A stretch of DNA of 56,288 bases from a virus. The DNA lies in the IMG/VR virus record IMGVR_UViG_3300032893_000058, positions 1 to 56,288 of that record, one strand, 5' to 3'. Below, piece by piece: positions 4,232-39,183 of this stretch (its first letter is position 1; every line of letters begins with the position of its first letter). The translations under genes and the position numbers were made by a program. The notes under the pieces are model-generated. The model searched no databases. It saw only the letters and a program-made list of their open reading frames with translations, and was not told where the DNA came from.

Positions 4232-4693
4232 TTAAACAAACTCGACTTCGATCTTGTGTGGAATCGGCTGGCCGTTCGGCCCGGAATGTTCGACCTGCTG
4301 CTTGCGGTACTTGTTGCGCCGACCGCCGAGGATCATCTGCATCAGCGCGTCGCTGTATTCCTGAACATGACCAACGCACTCACCGCCTTGATAGACTGGC
4401 TTCGACACGCCGTCGACGGCACGGCGCCGCGCCTCGTCCTCGATCACGTCGGTGCCGCGCTCGATGGCCTGCTCGACCCGCGCATTAAAATTCTGGTCCT
4501 TCCGCCATTCAAGCAGCGTCTGGCGCGAAATGTTGGCCTTGTCCGCCGCATAACCGACCGTGTAGCCTTTTTCGAGCCACGACACCACGCAGTCTTCGGC
4601 TTCCCGGCTGCGCTTGTGTTGAAACGGATTGCCGTTCGACTTGTCGCCGGTCGCCGGCATCTGAGGCTTGCGCGGAGGGCGGGGCTTCTTCAT
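4232..4693 (-). CDS. terS: Terminase small subunit
   Basis: 153 residues. It has the small-terminase layout: a basic N-terminus, a helix-turn-helix DNA-recognition region (AADKANISRQTLLEWR, about residues 50-65), then the conserved part found in many phage small terminases (VSKPVYQGGECVGHVQEYSD, then a MILGGRRNKYR motif). It would recognise the packaging site and deliver DNA to TerL and the portal. It overlaps the NusG-like gene by 4 bp. The large terminase is not adjacent but about ten genes downstream in the same leftward operon, which is unusual. Confidence 0.85.
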   Translation of the reverse strand: MKKPRPPRKPQMPATGDKSNGNPFQHKRSREAEDCVVSWLEKGYTVGYAADKANISRQTLLEWRKDQNFNARVEQAIERGTDVIEDEARRRAVDGVSKPVYQGGECVGHVQEYSDALMQMILGGRRNKYRKQQVEHSGPNGQPIPHKIEVEFV

Positions 4694-5097
4694 GCCGGCA
4701 ATCCCAGGCTGGCATCGATCACCATCGCCGTAAACAGCGTGGCGCGCGTCTCGTTGTCCATCGGCCGCAGCACGCCGGGGTCGTCGGCCCGCAGCATGAC
4801 GAAGCCGTCATCGTCCTCACGCTTCAATAACCGGTTGACGAGAGACTGCGGCAAGCGCACCGGCTGATTACCACGATGGACGACGCGCACCACGCCTGAA
4901 GTCTGTCGGATCGGGTCGATGCCGCGGCCATCATCGGCAACCAGCAGCGTGCGAGCCAGCAGCGGGCGCTCGATCACCCGGTCACGCCGCGTGTAGCGCG
5001 TCAACAACAGGAGCACGTCAAACGAGCGTGCCGCCAGGCTGCGCCTGACGCGCTCTTCACACTGGGGTGCGGTACGGACGATGAAGAACGACGGCAT
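4690..5097 (-). CDS. NusG N-terminal-domain (NGN)-like transcription factor
   Basis: 135 residues from the ATG at 5097, which has a GAGGGG Shine-Dalgarno; an in-frame codon at 5235 is possible but less likely. The sequence follows the NGN pattern: a beta strand FFIVRTAPQCEERVRRSL, a central segment with RPLLARTLLVADD at the place of the NusG 'PLFPGYvFv' strand, then SGVVRVVHRGNQPVRLPQSLV (the 'vr-fl...g.p..v' segment). There is no KOW domain, so it is a stand-alone NGN module. NGN proteins bind RNA polymerase at its clamp. Being first in the leftward late operon, it may modify host polymerase to read through the very long late transcript (inference). Confidence 0.65.
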   Translation of the reverse strand: MPSFFIVRTAPQCEERVRRSLAARSFDVLLLLTRYTRRDRVIERPLLARTLLVADDGRGIDPIRQTSGVVRVVHRGNQPVRLPQSLVNRLLKREDDDGFVMLRADDPGVLRPMDNETRATLFTAMVIDASLGLPA

Positions 5098-5264: not shown

Positions 5265-5511
5265 GTCCGACCTGTCGACCCGTTGATGAAAAGTCGGACG
5301 CTCTCGAGCCCCGTCCGACGCGGGTCTGTCCTACCTGTCTTATATGTAACTACTTTTTCTTCTTCTTCGGAAAGAAAAAAGGGAAGATCGCCGCGACGCC
5401 GCCCCTCCCGCGTACGCGCGCGACCCCGCCAAGTAAGACAGGTCGGACACAGGCCCGTCCCGCGGGCCTCGAGTGAGGCTGGCTTGTCTTCGAGAAGTGG
5501 ACAGGTCGGAC
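5265..5511. repeat. 247-bp imperfect palindrome with operator-like boxes
   Basis: Two 78-bp arms (5265-5342 and 5434-5511) match as inverted repeats without gaps at about 57 of 78 positions. Each arm has a 12-bp box at both ends: GTCCGACCTGTC at 5265, GTCCTACCTGTC at 5328, and the reverse complement GACAGGTCGGAC at 5437 and 5500. Boxes within an arm are 63 bp apart start to start, and a CTCGAG lies at the same offset in both arms. Two further GTCSGAC heptamers lie at 5293 and 5313. The central 91 bp holds a T-rich then A-rich tract (about 5351-5379). The region lies between the divergent early and late promoters. No convincing gene is seen here. Confidence 0.75.
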
Positions 5512-6436: not shown

Positions 6437-6610
6437 GTGCGCTATTCTTTCCGCAATACCGGCGGCACGCTGGTGACCGTTGTGGCTGACGACGAGAATC
6501 GTGCCCGCTTCCTCGCGATGGTCAAGCTGCACGGGCCGGTCCCGCCGCCCGTGCTTGGTATCATTCGCTGGACCGGCACCGGCCTCGACCTGATCGCCGC
6601 TGATGCCTAA
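6437..6610 (+). CDS. Small conserved-looking protein before primase-helicase
   Basis: 57 residues from GTG 6437, preceded by GGGAGGG. It looks like a compact beta-alpha-beta fold (MRYSFRNTGGTLVTVVADD, then a helix, then GIIRWTGTGLDLI). It overlaps the primase-helicase start by 8 bp. Function unknown. Confidence 0.55.
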   Translation: MRYSFRNTGGTLVTVVADDENRARFLAMVKLHGPVPPPVLGIIRWTGTGLDLIAADA

Positions 6611-8837
6611 GCCGCGCCCGGTCGTCGTCGGCGCTTCTTCGCTGCCCGTGCTGCAGACGCTGGCCTGGCTGCGCCGCTTTAACTTCCGTCCCGTCGCGCT
6701 GCACCCGCGCCGCAAGGCCGCCGTGTCTCGCGCCTACGTCGATCTCGATTACAAGCCGCCGGACGACGAACTGTGGCAGCACAACGATTATGGCGTCGGC
6801 GTCGTCACCGGGCCGGCGCATTCGGGGCCGGTCGACGTCGATCTCGACTGCGAGGAAGCCGTCTATTTTGCCTCCGTGTTCTTGCCGCCGACGCCGGCCG
6901 TGTTCGGCAGAGAGTCCAAACGTGCGTCGCATTATTTATATCGTGTTGAAACGCCGACATTTGAAAAAAAAGCATTCAACGATCCGCGCAACAACGAATC
7001 CACCATCGTCGAAATGCGGGGCGATGCCGGCCATCAAACAGTGATGCCGGGCTCGATCCACGAGCAGACCGGCGAACTGATCCGCTGGGACAGCGACGAG
7101 AACCCCGACGTGCCGATGGTCGACGCCGCCGAACTCATTCGCGCCGTGCGCAAAGTCGCCGTCGCGGTGCTGGTGGTGCGTCACATCTGGCAGCCGGGCT
7201 TTCATAATTCTCCGTGTTTGAGTTTGTCCGGGCTGTTCTACTATCTTGACTGGTCGCTGGATGAAGCCGAGCAATTCATCGCCGCGGTGTGCGACTACAC
7301 CGACGATCGCGACAAGTCGCGGCTGCCCACGGTGCGCGCCACTTACAAGCGCGGCGAAGCCGGCAAGAAGGTGTCGGGTGCCGGCGTGCTGCGCAAACAA
7401 TTGAACGACGACAAGCTGGTCGATCGGCTGCTCGAGTGGGCCGGCTCGCCGTCAGTAAATTTGATCAACGATTACAATTCGCGCTGGGCGGTGGTGCCGG
7501 TCGGCGGCAAATTTCGCATTGCCGACACCGACGTGCTGCCGGGCCAGCCGCCGCTGTTCTACGGCAAGGAGGACTGGCTCAACCTGGTCGGCACCGACTT
7601 CACCGACATCGAAGGCAAGCCGGTGTTGCGCGGTAAGTTGTGGCTCACCAATCCGCGGCGCCGCGCTTACCGCGGCATCGACTTCGTGCCCGGCGCCGAC
7701 GACGGCCAGACTTTAAACCTGTGGACCGGCTGGGCGGTAGAGCCCAAGGCCGGCGACTGCAGCGCCTGGATCGAACTTTCGCGCGACGTTATTTGCGGTG
7801 GCGACAAACATTTGTTTCGCTGGCTGGCGCACTGGTTCGCCAACATCGTGCGCGAACCGTGCAACAAGTCGCTCACCGCGCTGGTTGTAATCAGTTCGCT
7901 CGAGGGCGCCGGCAAGACGCTGATGTTCGAATATTTCGGACGGATTCTCGGGCCGTCCTACGTCACCGTCACCAAGGAAAACCACATCGTCGGGCAGTTC
8001 AACCGGCATCTAGGCGGCGCGCTACTGCTACACTCCGAGGAAGCACTGTACGGTGGTGACGTCAAGCATGCCGGCATCATTCGCTCACTGATCACCGACC
8101 CGTGGCACATGATCGAGCCCAAAGGCGTCGACAGCCAGAAAGTGCGCAATTATCTGCGGCTGGCCTTGACCAGCAATAACATTCACGCGGCGCCGGCCCG
8201 GCCCAGCGACCGCCGCTACACCGTGATCGACATGAAGGAACGCCGCGCCAGCGACGATCTCATTACGCGGGTGTTGAAGGAATTGGACGGCGACGGGCCG
8301 GCGGCATTGTTCCAGGCGCTGCTCGATCTCGACTATGACCCGGCGCTCCCACGCGTCAACGTCAAGAACGACGCGCTGCTGAGCCTGAAATCGATCAACC
8401 TGCAGCCGATGGAGGCATGGTGGCTCGAGACGTTGCAGGACGGCTTGCTGCTGCCGGATTGCCTGAACTGGGCACAGAAGCCGGAAAAGGACGAGTGGCC
8501 GGAAACGGCGGCCGTGCCGGCGCTGCACGTCGCCATGGCGCTCAACCTGCGTGCCCGCAACGTGCGGTCGGTGCCGTCGGCACAGGCGCTGGCATTCAAC
8601 TTGGAGAAGTTCATCGGCCGGCCGTTTCACCGCTCGAAGCTGAGTTTCGATAATCCGCTGCTTGATGACTATCCGCCGGCAGTCAAGCAACTTAACGGCC
8701 GCATGACCAGCATCGTCAACGTGCCGGACCTGAACTCTTGCCGCGAGGCGTTCGAGCGGTTCATCGGCCAGGATTTCGACTGGCCGGACGAAGGGGAGAG
8801 GAACGATGGACGACGTGAGCCACACCGCGACTTCTGA
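6603..8837 (+). CDS. Primase-helicase (archaeo-eukaryotic-type primase fused to SF3 helicase)
   Basis: 744 residues. The N-terminal part has the bifunctional primase/polymerase pattern, with an acidic metal site in GPVDVDLDCEEA (about residues 75-86) and later VEMRGDAGHQTVMPGS typical of these primases. The C-terminal part is a D5-like superfamily 3 helicase: Walker A ISSLEGAGKT (about residues 428-437), Walker B-like ALLLHSEEALYGG, then an arginine-finger region SDRRYTVIDM. It would unwind and prime phage DNA for the family A polymerase encoded further down the same strand. In some aminoadenine phages a PrimPol takes part in replication, so its nucleotide preference is of interest. Confidence 0.85.
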   Translation: MPKPRPVVVGASSLPVLQTLAWLRRFNFRPVALHPRRKAAVSRAYVDLDYKPPDDELWQHNDYGVGVVTGPAHSGPVDVDLDCEEAVYFASVFLPPTPAVFGRESKRASHYLYRVETPTFEKKAFNDPRNNESTIVEMRGDAGHQTVMPGSIHEQTGELIRWDSDENPDVPMVDAAELIRAVRKVAVAVLVVRHIWQPGFHNSPCLSLSGLFYYLDWSLDEAEQFIAAVCDYTDDRDKSRLPTVRATYKRGEAGKKVSGAGVLRKQLNDDKLVDRLLEWAGSPSVNLINDYNSRWAVVPVGGKFRIADTDVLPGQPPLFYGKEDWLNLVGTDFTDIEGKPVLRGKLWLTNPRRRAYRGIDFVPGADDGQTLNLWTGWAVEPKAGDCSAWIELSRDVICGGDKHLFRWLAHWFANIVREPCNKSLTALVVISSLEGAGKTLMFEYFGRILGPSYVTVTKENHIVGQFNRHLGGALLLHSEEALYGGDVKHAGIIRSLITDPWHMIEPKGVDSQKVRNYLRLALTSNNIHAAPARPSDRRYTVIDMKERRASDDLITRVLKELDGDGPAALFQALLDLDYDPALPRVNVKNDALLSLKSINLQPMEAWWLETLQDGLLLPDCLNWAQKPEKDEWPETAAVPALHVAMALNLRARNVRSVPSAQALAFNLEKFIGRPFHRSKLSFDNPLLDDYPPAVKQLNGRMTSIVNVPDLNSCREAFERFIGQDFDWPDEGERNDGRREPHRDF

Positions 8838-12356: not shown

Positions 12357-12385
12357 TTGACAAGCGTTTCGCCGCATGTTTTAGT
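12357..12385 (+). promoter_or_regulatory. Putative early promoter
   Basis: TTGACA, 17 nt, then TTTAGT; starts 2 bp after the previous stop codon and drives the gene at 12430. Confidence 0.6.
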
Positions 12386-12426
12386 TGCTCCATCGGCCGC
12401 GACCGGCCGTTCAGATAGGAGCAACT
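12383..12426 (+). promoter_or_regulatory. Leader stem-loop that buries the Shine-Dalgarno
   Basis: AGTTGCTCC (12383-12391) is perfectly complementary to GGAGCAACT (12418-12426), which contains the GGAG ribosome-binding site of the gene starting at 12430. A smaller GC-rich palindrome (CGGCCG) lies in the loop. If formed, it would lower translation. Confidence 0.55.
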
Positions 12427-12429
12427 GCC

Positions 12430-13017
12430 ATGAAGATTCATCACAACACGCTGAAGAAGGCCAAGGCGCACGGGCTGATCGTCGAATGGTCGGAGCCGGA
12501 TAACGTCTTTGTTGTTAGCAAAGACGGCGATCCAGTTGTGGAAGCGAAGGACCCCAAGGACGCGCTCGATCTCGCCATTCTTGAATTGAGCGGCGGGGGT
12601 GTCGGGACAACGAAACCAAAGCCGACGACGCGCAAAGCGAAGAAGGCCGAGGCGCCGCGCAAGCGCGCCGACGACGAGGACGAGAGCGAGAATGGCGACG
12701 ACGAGGGCGACGCCTCCCGTTCGGTGGTCAAGGCCAAGTACCGCGCCCGCTATCTGCCAAACAAGGGTCACTGCGGTGACGATCTCGCCAAGAAGCTGCG
12801 CGACGCGTTCATGACCGAGAAGGATGAGGACACCGGCAAGCCGCGGCTCGATTTCGAGGCGTTCGTCGAATTCGCCAAAGCCAACGGCGTGTGGGTCGAG
12901 GGTTACCGCCGGCTGAAGGACCGCCATGGCAACCGCAATGACGGCCTGATCCGCATGAATTGCGCGAACCGCCTCCGTGCCAAGGTGCGGCGCGACAAAC
13001 ACAAGATCGTGTGGTAA
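12430..13017 (+). CDS. Early-region paralogue B with acidic linker
   Basis: 195 residues. N-terminal domain (residues 1-60), then a basic stretch (KPKPTTRKAKKAEAPRKR) directly followed by an acidic one (DDEDESENGDDEGD), then a C-terminal domain with FAKANGVWVEGY and RNDGLIRMNCANRLRAKVR, shared with the genes at 11543 and 13111. The charged linker and basic end suggest a DNA- or RNA-associated protein. It has its own promoter and a leader hairpin. Confidence 0.65.
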   Translation: MKIHHNTLKKAKAHGLIVEWSEPDNVFVVSKDGDPVVEAKDPKDALDLAILELSGGGVGTTKPKPTTRKAKKAEAPRKRADDEDESENGDDEGDASRSVVKAKYRARYLPNKGHCGDDLAKKLRDAFMTEKDEDTGKPRLDFEAFVEFAKANGVWVEGYRRLKDRHGNRNDGLIRMNCANRLRAKVRRDKHKIVW

Positions 13018-17135: not shown

Positions 17136-17395
17136 CGCAGCGCCAGTTCCGCGCCCTCAAGTGGCGCGAAGTCTACCGTGACGACCGCATCGTCGTCTTC
17201 TCAGGGGGTCTAGATGGCTTCAGCCTCGTCCACGTCAAGCAAGGCCAAAAAGTTACTAACATGTACCGTGTACGAGGACGTTGGTATGACAGCCCGTCCG
17301 AAGCGGTCCTGGCCTACAACGGGCGCCCCCGACGAGACGCTGCAGACCGTGCTAAATCGGTTGAAGGACCCGACCCAGTCGACGCGCTGCCTTGA
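17129..17395 (+). CDS. Possible overlapping small gene before the polymerase
   Basis: 88 residues from a TTG overlapping the previous stop; an ATG at 17045 in the same frame is an alternative. The translation looks protein-like (YRDDRIVVFSGGLDGFSLV, MYRVRGRWYDSPSEAVLAYN). Its 3' end overlaps the polymerase start region by 110-182 bp in another frame, so either this gene or the longer polymerase N-terminus may not be used. Confidence 0.4.
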   Translation: MLTQRQFRALKWREVYRDDRIVVFSGGLDGFSLVHVKQGQKVTNMYRVRGRWYDSPSEAVLAYNGRPRRDAADRAKSVEGPDPVDALP

Positions 17396-19214
17396 CGTCG
17401 AAACGTCCGGGCTTGACTGGCGTAACAACGCCATCGTCGGCTACGTCGTCACGTTCAGCGGCGACCCGCGCGATTCCTATTACGTGCCGTTTCGCCACGC
17501 CGGTAATGCCAACGTCGGGGGTCGCGACGGTCTGAAATCGCCGACCGGCTGGGATGGCAAGCTGTTGCCGGGCGAAAAGGAACTGGTGACGGCGCTCGAC
17601 CAGCCGGGCACGCTGATGTTCGGACACAATCTGGCGTTTGATTTGCGGTTCAAGGCGCGCGTCGGCTTTAAGTTTCAACCGAAGTTCGAAGATACCATAA
17701 TCAACGAACCGCTGCTCGACGAGTATGCGACGTTCTCGCTGGTGGCCTGTGCCGCGCGCCACAACGTGCAGGCCAAGAAGGGCACCGAACTTTATGCTTA
17801 CATGGCTGACAAGCTGGGCGAGAAGAACGACAAGAACATTATGGGCCATTTCTGGCGTCTGTCCGGTGACGATCCGATGGCGGTCGAATATGCCTGCGGC
17901 GACGGCACGTCGACCTGGCAATTGCGCGACGCGCAGATGGTTGAAATTCAGGCGCAGGAATTAGGCCGCGTTCATGCTGTCGAAAGTCGCCTGATCCCGG
18001 TGCTGGCGCGCATGATGGTGCGCGGCGTCAAGGTCGACGAGGAACGCCTGGAATGGCTGATCGGGCACATCGACGATGAAGTCGAAAAACTGAAGAACGA
18101 ATTTCCGCCCGATTTCAACGCACTGTCGCCGACCGACGTGCAGGCGTGGATGGAGAAGCACGGCCATACCGACTGGCCACGCACGGCGCCGTCGCGGACC
18201 CGGCCGCAAGGCTCGCCGTCGTTCACGTCGCACTGGCTCGAGACGCACGAGGCCGGCCGCAAGATCATCAAACTACGCAAGTGGGAGAACCTCAATTCGA
18301 CCTTTTGCCATCCGCTGCGCGATCGGCACCTGTGGCACGGGCGGGTGCACTGCACCTTTAACCAGCTTCGCAACGACGAGTTCGGCACCGTGACCGGGCG
18401 ATTGTCGAGCAACGACCCCAACATGCAACAGGTGCCCAAGCACGACGAGGACTTGGGCCGGCTGTACCGGTCGGTGTTCGTGCCGGATTACGGATTGTGG
18501 GGCGAGCGCGACTACAGTCAGATCGAGCCGCGGCTGATGGCCTGGTATACGCGGGCGCGGGTGTTCCTCGACGACTATCGCAACAACCCGGACGCCGACA
18601 GCCACACCGCAGTGGCCAAGGATGCCAAGGGCGCGGCGTGGGACGACATGTCGCCGGCCGAGCAAAAGCACTTCCGCAACACTTGGGCCAAGCGCGTCAA
18701 TCAGACCGTGATCACGGGGGGCGGTAAGAACGCGCTGATCAAAAAATACAAGATGTCCGAGCAAGAAGCGATGCAGGCGCTGGTGCGCTATTTCAGGACC
18801 GTGCCTGAATTGAAGCCATTTCAGAAGAAGGCGGCGCGGTTGTTCCGCGAGCGCGGCTACGTGCGCGACGTGCTGGGGCGCCGGGCGCACTTGCGCGATC
18901 CGGACAAGGACTACACCGCGATGAACCGGCTGCTGCAGATGAGCAACGCCAGCATGCTCAAACTTAAGATGGCCGAAGTGCAGGAGTATCTGGACAGCGA
19001 GCCACAGGCGCAGGTCGAACTGCTTTTAAATTGTCACGACGCGCTGTCGTTCCAGTTTGCACTTGACAAGCGGTCGCGGGCCGCGTATGCTGAGTGCAAG
19101 CATATCATGGAGGACTTCTCAAGTGACGCGGCGATGGTCAAGATCGACCTGCCGATCAAGGTCGACGAGGGCGACGGCCCGAATTGGAGCGTCGCAACAT
19201 ACGGGGAAGATTGA
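17214..19214 (+). CDS. dpoZ: Family A DNA polymerase with 3'-5' exonuclease, DpoZ-like
   Basis: 666 residues from ATG 17214 (AGGGGG upstream); ATG 17286 with GAGGA is an equally possible start. Exonuclease motifs are intact: I LDVETSG (D61, E63), II FGHNLAFD, III YACGDGTSTW. Polymerase motif A is DYSQIEPR (D433). Motif B reads AKRVNQTVITGGG (K493), where the two usual aromatic positions of the O-helix appear to be Gln and Thr. Motif C is CHDALSF (D609), with Ala after HD instead of the usual Glu. There is no 5' nuclease domain. In the company of purZ, mazZ and datZ it is best read as the polymerase that copies 2-aminoadenine DNA; the DpoZ assignment is by context plus unusual active-site residues. 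Its stop overlaps the methyltransferase start. Confidence 0.85.
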   Translation: MASASSTSSKAKKLLTCTVYEDVGMTARPKRSWPTTGAPDETLQTVLNRLKDPTQSTRCLDVETSGLDWRNNAIVGYVVTFSGDPRDSYYVPFRHAGNANVGGRDGLKSPTGWDGKLLPGEKELVTALDQPGTLMFGHNLAFDLRFKARVGFKFQPKFEDTIINEPLLDEYATFSLVACAARHNVQAKKGTELYAYMADKLGEKNDKNIMGHFWRLSGDDPMAVEYACGDGTSTWQLRDAQMVEIQAQELGRVHAVESRLIPVLARMMVRGVKVDEERLEWLIGHIDDEVEKLKNEFPPDFNALSPTDVQAWMEKHGHTDWPRTAPSRTRPQGSPSFTSHWLETHEAGRKIIKLRKWENLNSTFCHPLRDRHLWHGRVHCTFNQLRNDEFGTVTGRLSSNDPNMQQVPKHDEDLGRLYRSVFVPDYGLWGERDYSQIEPRLMAWYTRARVFLDDYRNNPDADSHTAVAKDAKGAAWDDMSPAEQKHFRNTWAKRVNQTVITGGGKNALIKKYKMSEQEAMQALVRYFRTVPELKPFQKKAARLFRERGYVRDVLGRRAHLRDPDKDYTAMNRLLQMSNASMLKLKMAEVQEYLDSEPQAQVELLLNCHDALSFQFALDKRSRAAYAECKHIMEDFSSDAAMVKIDLPIKVDEGDGPNWSVATYGED

Positions 19215-20008: not shown

Positions 20009-21052
20009 ATGCCTCCCCATGCCGATGTTCTCCAATGGGAACATCTGCCGTTCCCCAAGTCGCTCCGGGATTTCCAGCGGCTTTTCCCGACTGATACTGC
20101 CTGCGCCCGCTGGCTTGAGGGTGCTAAGTGGCCGAAGGGCTTTGAGTGCCCGCATTGCCACGAAAAGGGCGACCCGCAACGGCTGGAATCCCGTCCGGGC
20201 GTCTTGGCTTGCCGATCCTGCCGTAAGCAAACGTCGCTGACGGTCGGCACGGTGATGGAGCGGACACATACGCCGCTCGCAACATGGTTTTGGGCGGCCT
20301 ACCTCGTTTCCAGCCTGACACCCGGCATTTCGGCCGTTCAACTGCAACGGCAGGTCGGACTTACAAGGTACGAGACGGCCTTCCAAATCCTGCACAAGCT
20401 CCGCGCTGGCATGGTGCGGCCAAACCGCGACCAGATCGGCGGCAATCTGGCGCGCGGCGATCATGTCGAGGTCGATGAATGTTATATCGGCGGCGAGACG
20501 CGCGGTAAGGGCAAAGGCGTGCACGCCGACGAAAAGACCCTGGTTGTTGCTGCGGTCGAAGTCCGCACGCGACCGGCCAAGAAGGGCGATAAGCCTATGC
20601 GGCGCGGCGGCCGATATGCTGGCCGTCTGCGGCTGGAAATCGCGCCGACACGTGGCGAGAAATCCCTCTGCGGCTTTGTGGAGGCTGCCGTCGCGCCGGG
20701 CGCAATCGTCATCACGGATGCGGCCCCGGCTTATAGGAACCTCGAAAAGCTCGGCTATGCCCATCTGCCGGTGATTGAAGGCGGCAATCCGGAAGTCGCC
20801 GAAGAATATCTGCCCATCGTCCACTTGGTTTTCAGCAACCTGAAAGCTTGGCTGCAGGGCACCCATCACGGTCGCGTCGAGCCCAAGCACCTGCAGACTT
20901 ATCTCAACGAGTTCACCTTCCGCTTTAACCGGCGGTTCTACCCATTCAACGCTTTCCGCTCGTTGCTCGGCATCGGGGCAAACGGCGAAGCTCCGACCTA
21001 TGATGGGCTCTATAGCGGGAAGTGGAAGCATCGGACGCTCGATCATGACTGA
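20009..21052 (+). CDS. IS1595-family transposase
   Basis: 347 residues. An N-terminal zinc ribbon (CPHCHEKGDP, then CRSCRKQ) is followed by a DDE/DDN-type catalytic domain: VEVDECYIGG (first acidic residue), IVITDAAPAYRNL (second), and STDH-like NLKAWLQGTHHGRVEPKHLQ with FTFRFNRRF near the end. Layout and length fit the ISXO2-like transposase family of IS1595 elements. It appears intact. Confidence 0.92.
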   Translation: MPPHADVLQWEHLPFPKSLRDFQRLFPTDTACARWLEGAKWPKGFECPHCHEKGDPQRLESRPGVLACRSCRKQTSLTVGTVMERTHTPLATWFWAAYLVSSLTPGISAVQLQRQVGLTRYETAFQILHKLRAGMVRPNRDQIGGNLARGDHVEVDECYIGGETRGKGKGVHADEKTLVVAAVEVRTRPAKKGDKPMRRGGRYAGRLRLEIAPTRGEKSLCGFVEAAVAPGAIVITDAAPAYRNLEKLGYAHLPVIEGGNPEVAEEYLPIVHLVFSNLKAWLQGTHHGRVEPKHLQTYLNEFTFRFNRRFYPFNAFRSLLGIGANGEAPTYDGLYSGKWKHRTLDHD

Positions 21053-22655: not shown

Positions 22656-22798
22656 AACTGCTTTGTTATTGGTTTGGTCATAAATGGAAATGGTCAGAGT
22701 GGTGGACACCGCCAACTGTACCGCCTAGTCCGTGTCTTTATCGCTGGAAAACGTGCCAGCGATGCGGAGAATCTTATCGTCAGCACGTTTTAAAATAG
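22652..22798 (+). CDS. Small Cys/Trp-rich phage protein (DUF1660-like)
   Basis: 48 residues, coupled to the previous gene (ATGA). Layout CYWFGHKWKW, then CQRCGESY matches small phage proteins with one Cys near GHKW and a CxxC, probably metal-binding. Function unknown. Confidence 0.55.
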   Translation: MKLLCYWFGHKWKWSEWWTPPTVPPSPCLYRWKTCQRCGESYRQHVLK

Positions 22799-22809
22799 GA
22801 GATCAGATC

Positions 22810-23901
22810 ATGTGGCTCGATCAATTCTGTCAGCGCGGCAAGGCCGACGTGATCGTCGGCGGGCAATGGGGCTCGGAAGGCAAGGGCGCCGCGGCGGCCT
22901 ATCTGGCGCGGCGGTTAGCCGAAGGTTTTCGCTCCTACGATGTTTACAGCACCAATGCCGGCGCCCAGGCCGGACACACATCGGTTCACAGGGGACGCAA
23001 GCGCGTCGTGTTTCATTTGCCGACCGCGGCACTGATCGCGCGGGATCACGATTTTCCTGGACTGATCCACTTGAACGGCGGGTCGATCATCGACCCCGAC
23101 GTGTTGGAACAGGAACTTAAGGACAACGACCTGACCACCACCGACGTTCAAATTCACGCCAATGCCGCGGTGATCACGCAGGACTGCAAGGACGCCGAGG
23201 GCTTGGCTCATTCAGTGCAGACCAAGATTGCTTCGACCCGCAAGGGCGTCGGCGAGGCGCTGGCGCGCAAGGTGCTGCGATCCGGCGTGATCGCCAAGGA
23301 CCACCCGTTCCTGCGCCAGTTCGTGCGCCCGATACCGTGGCGCATGTTGAGCATTGACCGGGTCCTGGTTGAAGTGCCGCAAGGCATCGGGCTGTCGGTC
23401 GACGGGCAATTTTACCCGCACTGCACGTCGCGCAATTGCACGCTGCAGCAGGGGCTGGCCGATGCCGGCATTCACCCGCGCCAGTTCGGCGCCTCGATGT
23501 TGGTGCTGCGTACCACGCCGATCAGAGTCGGCAACATTGTCGAATCGTTGAGTATTGACACGCCATTTGGCGCGGTACGCAGTAAACCCACTGTGCTTGG
23601 CACGTCCGGCGGCTACTATGCTGACCAGCGGGAATTGTCGTGGAACGAATTAGGCGTGCCGCCGGAAATTACCACCGTGACCAAGCGCGTGCGCCGCGTG
23701 TTCTCGTTCTCGGGTCGGCAGGCGCGTGAAGCCATAATGCTGACGCGCCCTGACGTGGTACATCTGACGTTCTGCGATTACCCGGTTAACGTGGCTGAAA
23801 TCACGATCAGCATTATCAACACGGCGGAGCATTTCAGGCTTGAGCCTAAGGTGTTGTTCCAATACGGGCCGACGACTGACGACGTTCAGGAGGAAATGTG
23901 A
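22810..23901 (+). CDS. purZ: PurZ, 2-aminoadenylosuccinate synthetase
   Basis: 363 residues from ATG 22810 with AGGAGA upstream; an in-frame codon at 22732 overlaps the upstream small gene. It belongs to the adenylosuccinate synthetase family: P-loop GGQWGSEGKG (residues 17-26), NAGAQAGHT with the conserved His56, TRKGVGEA, and GTSGGYYADQ near the end. In PurA the P-loop reads GDEGKG with a catalytic Asp; here it is Ser22, the change known to mark PurZ, which joins aspartate to dGMP to make the precursor of 2-aminoadenine. It is shorter than typical PurA (about 430). Followed by mazZ and datZ, it commits this phage to a Z-genome (function by family knowledge). Confidence 0.93.
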   Translation: MWLDQFCQRGKADVIVGGQWGSEGKGAAAAYLARRLAEGFRSYDVYSTNAGAQAGHTSVHRGRKRVVFHLPTAALIARDHDFPGLIHLNGGSIIDPDVLEQELKDNDLTTTDVQIHANAAVITQDCKDAEGLAHSVQTKIASTRKGVGEALARKVLRSGVIAKDHPFLRQFVRPIPWRMLSIDRVLVEVPQGIGLSVDGQFYPHCTSRNCTLQQGLADAGIHPRQFGASMLVLRTTPIRVGNIVESLSIDTPFGAVRSKPTVLGTSGGYYADQRELSWNELGVPPEITTVTKRVRRVFSFSGRQAREAIMLTRPDVVHLTFCDYPVNVAEITISIINTAEHFRLEPKVLFQYGPTTDDVQEEM

Positions 23902-24212: not shown

Positions 24213-24598
24213 GCGAACCATCAGCCAGACAACAATTTGAAAATAAATACGGCGTGCCGACTGAAGTGTATTGCATGAAATGTGACAATTGTTGCTTACG
24301 TATTGACGGTTCAGTAATTTCACCTGAACGCATCCGGCCGACAGTGGCTGCTTTTGCTGTTGCTATGGAGGCCAAACTTCGCAAAAATGACCACAAGACC
24401 GCGTGGCGCGACTTGCCGGTCGAGGCGCTGTTTCGGCAGTTGCTGATTGAACTTGAGGAATTCAAGGTCGCTGACGAGTTTCTCAACGTGTCCGAGGCCC
24501 GTAAGGAACTGGTCGATCTGGCCAATTTTTGCCTCATCCTGCACGACCGTCTCGGCATGCTCGACCAGGATAAGAACCGCCATGCCCAACCAAAGTGA
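24209..24598 (+). CDS. mazZ: MazZ-like (d)GTP pyrophosphohydrolase
   Basis: 129 residues. MazG/DUF550-type all-alpha NTP-PPase: FAVAMEAKLRKND, then LLIELEEFKVA (acidic residues 81, 83, 84) and EARKELVDLANFCLILHDRL (E100, D103), the metal-binding ExxE...ExxD arrangement. In known Z phages MazZ cuts (d)GTP to (d)GMP, the PurZ substrate. An N-terminal Cys cluster (C22, C25, C28, C29) is an extra feature that may bind a metal. Coupled to its neighbours; overlaps datZ by 17 bp. Confidence 0.82.
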   Translation: MSEPSARQQFENKYGVPTEVYCMKCDNCCLRIDGSVISPERIRPTVAAFAVAMEAKLRKNDHKTAWRDLPVEALFRQLLIELEEFKVADEFLNVSEARKELVDLANFCLILHDRLGMLDQDKNRHAQPK

Positions 24599-25223
24599 AC
24601 TGATCCAGATGTTTCCGCCCGAACTGCGCACGGCGTCGGTCGTGCCGCGTTGGTCGGTGTTGTGGACGCTGACGCGCGATACCATCGCCAACCACAGTTT
24701 TTATGTGGCGATATATGCGCGGTCCATCGCCCGGCTGATCAAGTGGCGCAGCTCAAATTACGCTATGTTGATATATTTGGCGTTGACCCACGATCTGGAC
24801 GAGACGATCACGGGCGATATCGTGTCGCCGATCAAGTCGGAAATCGTGGACCGCGACCGCTATGACGCGCTGGTGGCGCGCAAGATGCGCGAGCGGCTGC
24901 CTGACATCGAGGCCGAACTGTCGGTATGGGCTAATACGACTGGCCGGGGCGCCTCCTTCGGCCACGTCGGGGCGGAGCAACAATATGACGAAGCCTGGAA
25001 AATCATCGCCGTGGCCGATCGCCTTGACGCGCTGCTGTTTCTGATCGGCGAGCAGCGCATGGGCAACGGCGTCATTGCGCCGCGCATTCCGGACGCGCAA
25101 AACCGTCTGCACGCGGCGTTCATGGAACTGCCGAAGGTCAAGCAGGAACTGGAAGCATTGTGGCAGTGCGTAATGCTGCCGGTGATCCGGGAACACGGCG
25201 ACACGGGAGGGAACGGCGTTTAA
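24582..25223 (+). CDS. datZ: DatZ-like HD-domain dATP triphosphohydrolase
   Basis: 213 residues from ATG 24582. The HD phosphohydrolase site is intact: RW at 23-24, IANHSF (H38), LTHDLDE (H70, D71), and AVADRLDALL (D146). The size and motif spacing fit YfbR/DatZ-like enzymes. In Z phages DatZ removes dATP so that only dZTP is available for replication. It lies directly after mazZ and overlaps the following helicase start (TAATG). Confidence 0.87.
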   Translation: MPNQSELIQMFPPELRTASVVPRWSVLWTLTRDTIANHSFYVAIYARSIARLIKWRSSNYAMLIYLALTHDLDETITGDIVSPIKSEIVDRDRYDALVARKMRERLPDIEAELSVWANTTGRGASFGHVGAEQQYDEAWKIIAVADRLDALLFLIGEQRMGNGVIAPRIPDAQNRLHAAFMELPKVKQELEALWQCVMLPVIREHGDTGGNGV

Positions 25224-38146: not shown

Positions 38147-38440
38147 CTAATGCTGCTGCGGGGGCGGCGGTGCCGGCGATTGCGTCATTCCCGCCATCTG
38201 CGCTTTGAGCGCCTCGATCTCCTGGTCGCGCTCCGCCATCTGCGCTTTGAGCGCCTCGATCTGTTCTTCCGGCGTGGGTTCCGGCACGTATTCCGGCACT
38301 TTCACGGCGTCATCGTGCGTGGCGTAAAAGTCGTCTTCCTCGTGCTTGTCGCGCACGACGATGATGTTGCCGGCTGTGTCGCGGTAAGGGTGACCAGCCT
38401 CGTTGCGCGGCATCAGGGGGTAGCGTTGCGGTGCGTCCAT
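38147..38440 (-). CDS. Small protein sharing a domain with the gene at 39195
   Basis: 97 residues. QRYPLMPRNEAGHPYRDTAG, NIIVVRDKHEEDDFYATH parallels the first domain of the 39195 gene. A Leu/Lys/Gln coiled coil follows, with two copies of IEALKAQMA encoded by a 30-bp direct repeat (38191-38220, 38233-38262). Ends Pro/Gln-rich. Likely virion-associated. Confidence 0.55.
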   Translation of the reverse strand: MDAPQRYPLMPRNEAGHPYRDTAGNIIVVRDKHEEDDFYATHDDAVKVPEYVPEPTPEEQIEALKAQMAERDQEIEALKAQMAGMTQSPAPPPPQQH

Positions 38441-38454
38441 GTCAAGTCCTCCTG

Positions 38455-39183
38455 TTAGAATTGATCGCTCAAGATGTTATACCCCGGCGAGTTGGAAGTC
38501 AGTTCCTTTGGAATAACCAGTTCGGGAATCTGCAAATTGGCGTTCTTGATCACGTTGAGCGAGTAAGTCGCAAGCCGGTTCAATTCGGTGTCGGGCTTCA
38601 TGCCCTTGCCGTATGCCTGTCTGTACCAGCGCGCCAGATTAAATTTCATGCCCGGCAGATATTCGGCCGGAACGGTGCTCATGTCGGTGTTGAGCGTCAC
38701 TACCGGTAGCACGTCGGCAAACGACAGTCCGAGTGCGTAAAGGTTGGCCTGCGGCACCGGGTAAGCATTGACGATGGCCAGCGGATATGCGGTTTGCAAG
38801 AACACGTACTGAGTGAACGAAATGAGCGACGGCAGCGCGATGCGATCCCATTCTTCTTGCGACGACACCACCGTGACCGGTTGCCGGACCTGAAGATTGG
38901 GTGGGTAGGTCAAAATCTTGATGTAGGCCGCCTTAATGCGGTTCGGGCGCGGCGTTATGTTGTAATCACCACCGGGGCCGGCGGTGTAAGTCAGCGCGCC
39001 GGTTGCTACTTTCTCAATGGTGACCTGATCCCACACCATCCAGCGCTCGCGGTTCCAGAGCGCCAGCATATCGTTGAAGTCGGCCAGCCCGTCGCTGATA
39101 TCATCGGCCGACGCCGGACGGCCCACGCCCAGCACGCCGCTCTTCTTGAGAGCGAAGGTGATGATGTCGCGGGCCGTCGTCAT
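38455..39183 (-). CDS. P22 gp4-like tail accessory factor
   Basis: 242 residues. It has the head-completion pattern MTTARDIITFALKKSGVL, DGLADFNDMLALWNRER, then a beta domain and PGMKFNLARWYRQAYG. The family ring sits on the portal after packaging and starts tail assembly. Follows the coat gene cluster. Confidence 0.75.
   Translation of the reverse strand: MTTARDIITFALKKSGVLGVGRPASADDISDGLADFNDMLALWNRERWMVWDQVTIEKVATGALTYTAGPGGDYNITPRPNRIKAAYIKILTYPPNLQVRQPVTVVSSQEEWDRIALPSLISFTQYVFLQTAYPLAIVNAYPVPQANLYALGLSFADVLPVVTLNTDMSTVPAEYLPGMKFNLARWYRQAYGKGMKPDTELNRLATYSLNVIKNANLQIPELVIPKELTSNSPGYNILSDQF

Follow-up and report, generated by a model that had tools for sequence, protein, structure and literature searches.

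The 56,288-bp virus genome analyzed here (the window) carries a box-bearing inverted repeat at positions 5265–5511, which we interpret, with a probability of roughly two in three, as a replication origin recognized by the PrimPol-helicase that the phage itself encodes. Comparison with other phages further suggests, at slightly less than an even chance in our judgement, an undescribed modular class of phage origins common to podo- and siphophages with a 2-aminoadenine module. In this class, short-period boxes read by the primase would lie in inverted arms together with a CCCGT-NNN-ACGGG hairpin, and box and primase helix bundle would diversify together, giving each lineage a specificity of its own. 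If this is true, related phages or satellites may be unable to use each other's replication proteins.

Four 12-bp boxes stand in mirror order, as the earlier note on this DNA had described: GTCCGACCTGTC at 5265–5276 (+ strand, outer) and GTCCTACCTGTC at 5328–5339 (+ strand, inner) in the left arm, and GTCCGACCTGTC at both 5437–5448 (− strand, inner) and 5500–5511 (− strand, outer) in the right arm. The start-to-start distance is 63 bp in both arms. A search of the whole genome allowing one mismatch returned just two further box matches (20349 and 48370), each within an ORF. The region had been called a 247-bp palindrome; the inverted arms are confirmed, but the symmetry does not extend over the full length: an asymmetric spacer of 91 nt separates two arms of 78 nt each that are 73% complementary. 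With a score of 31.8, the element is the strongest inverted repeat of the 56-kb genome (maximum score in 200 dinucleotide-shuffled genomes: mean 14.2, highest 19.6). CTCGAG is common to both arms (5303–5308 and 5468–5473), as claimed, whereas the additional GTCSGAC sites, although present, are confined to the left arm. Alignment of 17 units placed a hairpin or palindrome of the CCCGTNNNACGGG type in each arm: an imperfect left copy with one inserted base (5309–5324, − strand) and a right copy with an altered loop (GGCCCG-TCCCG-CGGGCC; 5452–5468, + strand). In a nearest-neighbour scan, the genome's least stable 40-bp duplex stretch (5340–5379), a candidate DNA-unwinding site, fell within the 91-nt centre between the arms (5343–5433). 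Folded as a single DNA strand, the region is far more structured than its shuffles (z −5.8), as expected because the element is a long inverted repeat. Rfam contained no match for the element. The DnaA box TTWTNCACA does not occur in the window genome, and a DnaA-dependent theta origin was rejected on this basis. GC skew reaches a minimum close to the element in the window (at 8.3 kb) and in the relative G001, but not in the relative G006; these minima are confounded by gene direction.

The window record ends in a 127-bp terminal repeat and is therefore probably a circular assembly. The phage is podovirus-like and encodes a P22-like portal, terminase, PolA (17214–19214), a PrimPol-helicase, a PurZ-type adenylosuccinate synthetase (22732–23901), and a dATPase-like protein (24447–25223). 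By this gene content, it probably carries 2-aminoadenine replacing adenine; ordinary PurA proteins of control genomes are matched by the PurZ profile as well, and 'Z phage' is therefore a status that we infer for the metagenomic members, including the window. The PrimPol-helicase (6603–8837, + strand) matches Pfam Prim-Pol (E 2.8e-8) and DUF5906, and its NrS-1-like SF3 helicase part matches the NrS-1 structure (PDB 6k9c/6k9e, E 2.4e-9). Between these, a structure model predicts a bundle of six helices at residues 175–282, after the Prim-Pol domain. A fold search with the N-terminal model retrieved the PrimPols of pRN1 (Z 11) and NrS-1, the best match spanning residues 13–282; the model was built on four sequences, and its helicase half is of low confidence. 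Pfam PriCT was matched by the primases of relatives (phiVC8, K300, G034, and SH-Ab15497) and not by that of the window. On the other side of the element, the leftward (late) block begins with a NusG-like protein (4690–5097, − strand; Pfam NusG, E 1.2e-9), whose start is likely at 5097 rather than in the longer ORF from 5235, and continues with the terminase small subunit (4232–4693, − strand; phrog_4044), also a conserved neighbour. Homologues of the NusG-like protein adjoin the element in G001 and in contig L200, where they head the terminase operon. We regard the NusG-like protein as a conserved neighbour of the element, and any part in the mechanism as putative.

Relatives were reached through a capsid protein search of IMG/VR; neither the NusG-like protein nor the primase, each used as a single query, gave matches there. 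The exact window box was absent from all 21 capsid relatives, and conservation was therefore sought as architecture. At that level, the conservation on which the earlier note had staked its proposal is present. Two capsid relatives that also share the primase, G001 (72% identical primase) and G006 (58%), each carry an extensive inverted repeat at a comparable location. It comprises two units per arm in G001, spaced 65 and 64 bp, and one unit per arm in G006, with arms 90% complementary. The exact 63-bp spacing was rejected as a conserved trait, given the 65/64 bp of the nearest relative (G001) and the single unit per arm of others. In contig L200, an element of this layout is flanked by the primase gene on one side and the NusG-like/TerS/TerL genes on the other, and a scan for the shared palindrome added two further contigs (L219 and G034). 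Compared with phages by BLASTN, the window region returned no matches; the G001 region gave a weak match to Vibrio phages (E 0.1) that pointed to VP5/phiVC8, and phiVC8 carries the element at 38331–38560. A set of PurZ phages added Vibrio phages K300 and K226 and Acinetobacter phages 53, SH-Ab15497, 2AB-P, and JeffCo, so that carriers comprise metagenomic contigs, phages of Vibrio (phiVC8/VP5 and K300/K226), and Acinetobacter Z-phages. Every carrier with checkable gene content encodes a PurZ-type enzyme and an archaeo-eukaryotic primase (AEP). A motif scan of genome contigs gave four matches, and the two that were inspected look like chance matches in coding sequence. The centre of the element is the weakest duplex of the genome in the window and G006 and lies within the weakest 0.03% in G001; it is unexceptional in K300, the Acinetobacter phages, and G034. 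In G001, ~4 kb of small leftward ORFs, absent from the window, separate the primase from the element (L090:9100–13400). The phiVC8 record and paper give other repeats (21322, 24135, 29215, 34592, and 39251) and annotate ORF47 over the element; neither describes an origin, and the paper does not mention the element (PMC4802629). This ORF (L233:38093–38788) is probably not a gene.

The 17 aligned copies define a common unit: one or more boxes, often with an 8–9 bp period, followed by 3–6 nt, the palindrome CCCGT-NNN-ACGGG, and often SCTCGA. The palindrome stands outward of the inner boxes. The hairpin is conserved, whereas the boxes vary from phage to phage (GTCCGACCTGTC, TGTCCTACTTGTCC, TGTCCACCG, GTCATC, CGTCACTCT, CGGTTGCT, TGTTCC, TGTACA, and TTGGGTTTCTT); in two-armed elements, the boxes of both arms agree within one phage. 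Of the 18 genomes with a PurZ-type gene, 11 contain exact CCCGT-NNN-ACGGG, one to three times per genome and in the element only; it is absent from all 14 comparison genomes (expected ≤0.2 each; 13 of these were tested for PurZ and lacked it, G016 being the remaining one). The window is among the seven PurZ-type genomes without the exact motif, both of its own copies being imperfect. Because the hairpin sequence hardly varies, there is no covariation to distinguish strand pairing from a double-stranded palindrome. Lambda-like nut sites were rejected on the differing orientation of the unit among phages and the lack of covariation, and N4-type hairpin promoters because no matching RNA polymerase was recognized among the ORFs scanned.

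The pair K300 and K226 points to a reader of the boxes. Outside three blocks, the two phages differ by 16 mismatches in ~35 kb; one block is a tail gene, another a 445-bp stretch of the primase gene, and the third the element together with small genes next to it. The boxes of the two phages, of GTCATC or GTCAC type, differ, and the changed primase segment lies 13 kb from the element. TerS, PolA, the main helicase, and a Pam3_gp34-like protein are identical in both phages, and none of them is therefore a likely box reader. Ten primase residues are changed, at positions 266–397, which overlap the PriCT_2/helix bundle; four of the ten (266, 267, 269, and 272) fall within seven residues inside the PriCT_2/helix-bundle domain (229–301). 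Four more K226-type phages, which are close kin, combine K226 boxes with the K226 primase. By a rough estimate, a random block would land in the primase gene ~6% of the time, and the K300/K226 linkage represents one event. We consider the coupled change good but not overwhelming evidence, at the sequence level, for reading of the boxes by the primase. Because the boxes and one short primase segment changed together, the phage's own primase seems to be the reader. There is no simple residue code, since phiVC8 and K300 share WSQRG at the key primase residues yet differ in their boxes. Neither phiVC8 nor K300 has the primase gene next to the element. Acinetobacter phages 53, SH-Ab15497, and JeffCo have diverged too far for a clean comparison of boxes and primase.

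The earlier note had considered either a dimeric early/late switch or a replication origin, and the origin is the alternative that we favour. As a divergent control region, the element would hold operators for a dimeric switch protein between outward promoters. Its location in the window, G006, and G034, with leftward late genes on one side and rightward early genes on the other, fits this role, as does ATATAAG just inside the inner boxes in the window and G006. Co-directional genes, however, flank the element in Acinetobacter phage 53, and in phiVC8 and K300 it lies inside the early block, ~1 kb from terS. The boxes are also confined to one locus, and no sigma-70-like match was found at the element (a consensus that may not be that of the host). 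Such a switch is unlikely on balance. The binders that had been proposed (ORFs 12143 and 8806 and the NusG-like protein) are unsupported, the best candidate being the PrimPol-helicase.

Two other readings were considered. A p46-like protein (phrog_8878 family), rather than the primase, might read it as an origin or partition site: the p46-like gene adjoins the element in phiVC8 and K300, its product is 78% identical between K300 and K226, and a profile-level homologue of its C-terminal part is encoded in the window (12385–13017). The gene lies, however, inside the same replaced block as the boxes, so its change may be hitchhiking, and the window homologue is 7 kb from the element. We regard this reading, which leaves the unlinked primase change unexplained, as decidedly unlikely. 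Proximity to terS or the first late genes, which begin at most ~1.3 kb downstream of the element wherever the context is known, would suit a pac/cos packaging site read by the terminase small subunit. We hold this to be very unlikely given that TerS is 100% identical in K300 and K226 while their boxes differ, the primase having changed instead.

If the element is an origin read by the PrimPol-helicase, copies of this protein would bind the boxes with the helix bundle located C-terminal to the Prim-Pol domain, and the 63-bp spacing would set paired units on the same DNA face. The SF3-like helicase ring would open the A/T-rich centre. Since each strand carries boxes, the Prim-Pol domain would initiate primers on both, and replication forks would thus depart in both directions. 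The hairpins may act as single-strand priming or loading sites, which is the least certain step.

The nearest known case is NrS-1, with two priming sites on opposite strands. Its helix bundle binds the priming site TTTGGTTA (PMC8718748), and its origin was proposed to consist of two of these sites, one on each strand (PMC7102993). Both phages combine a Prim-Pol domain, a helix bundle (predicted in the window), and an SF3-like helicase in one protein, and both have recognition sites (putative in the window) on both strands at one place, binding in the window being suggested by the K300/K226 pair. NrS-1 differs in having two single 8-nt TTTGGTTA sites, compared with several boxes, long inverted arms, hairpins, and an A/T centre here, and the window phage additionally has PolA. 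TTTGGTTA does not occur in the window, and sites of this type were rejected as an explanation of the element. In the oriV of RSF1010, the hairpins ssiA and ssiB are read by the RepB' primase (PMC4434180), which resembles the putative recognition here in pairing an AEP-type primase with inverted hairpin sites, one per strand. Unlike in RSF1010, a conserved GTG start motif is lacking on the 3' side of the hairpin in the 17 units, and boxes and hairpins are unrelated in sequence. Iteron origins of plasmids and lambda-like phages share the repeated boxes adjoining an A/T-rich segment. Here, by contrast, the boxes lie in inverted arms in a genome lacking DnaA boxes, and the role of reader probably falls to a primase-helicase instead of a separate initiator.

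A literature search found no described origin for phiVC8-like Z-genome phages; phiVC8 has the same Z replication module as the window, and the element provides a precise, testable origin candidate for this group. K300 and K226 form a natural pair in which a primase segment and origin boxes were exchanged together, and they offer a way to investigate which region of a PrimPol-helicase recognizes the origin sequence and how such an enzyme opens DNA whose A:T pairs bear an extra hydrogen bond. The unit also offers a search pattern for origins in uncultivated phages.

Two genomes without PurZ, G017 (L131:16259–16562) and PAKlein3 (L239:34758–35008), have a long inverted repeat that differs from this element but is likewise A/T-rich at its centre; in PAKlein3 it lies directly upstream of terS. 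These repeats may be origins of the same kind that use different boxes and lack the hairpin. In the PurZ-positive Ochrobactrum phage vB_OspP_OH, the strongest inverted repeat (L234:748–981), which lacks the CCCGT hairpin, lies at a divergent gene pair and overlaps a promoter-like TAAAAT. Within the window phage itself, an IS1595/ISXO2-type transposase ORF was found at 20009–21052, with a 77% identical copy in the relative G007.
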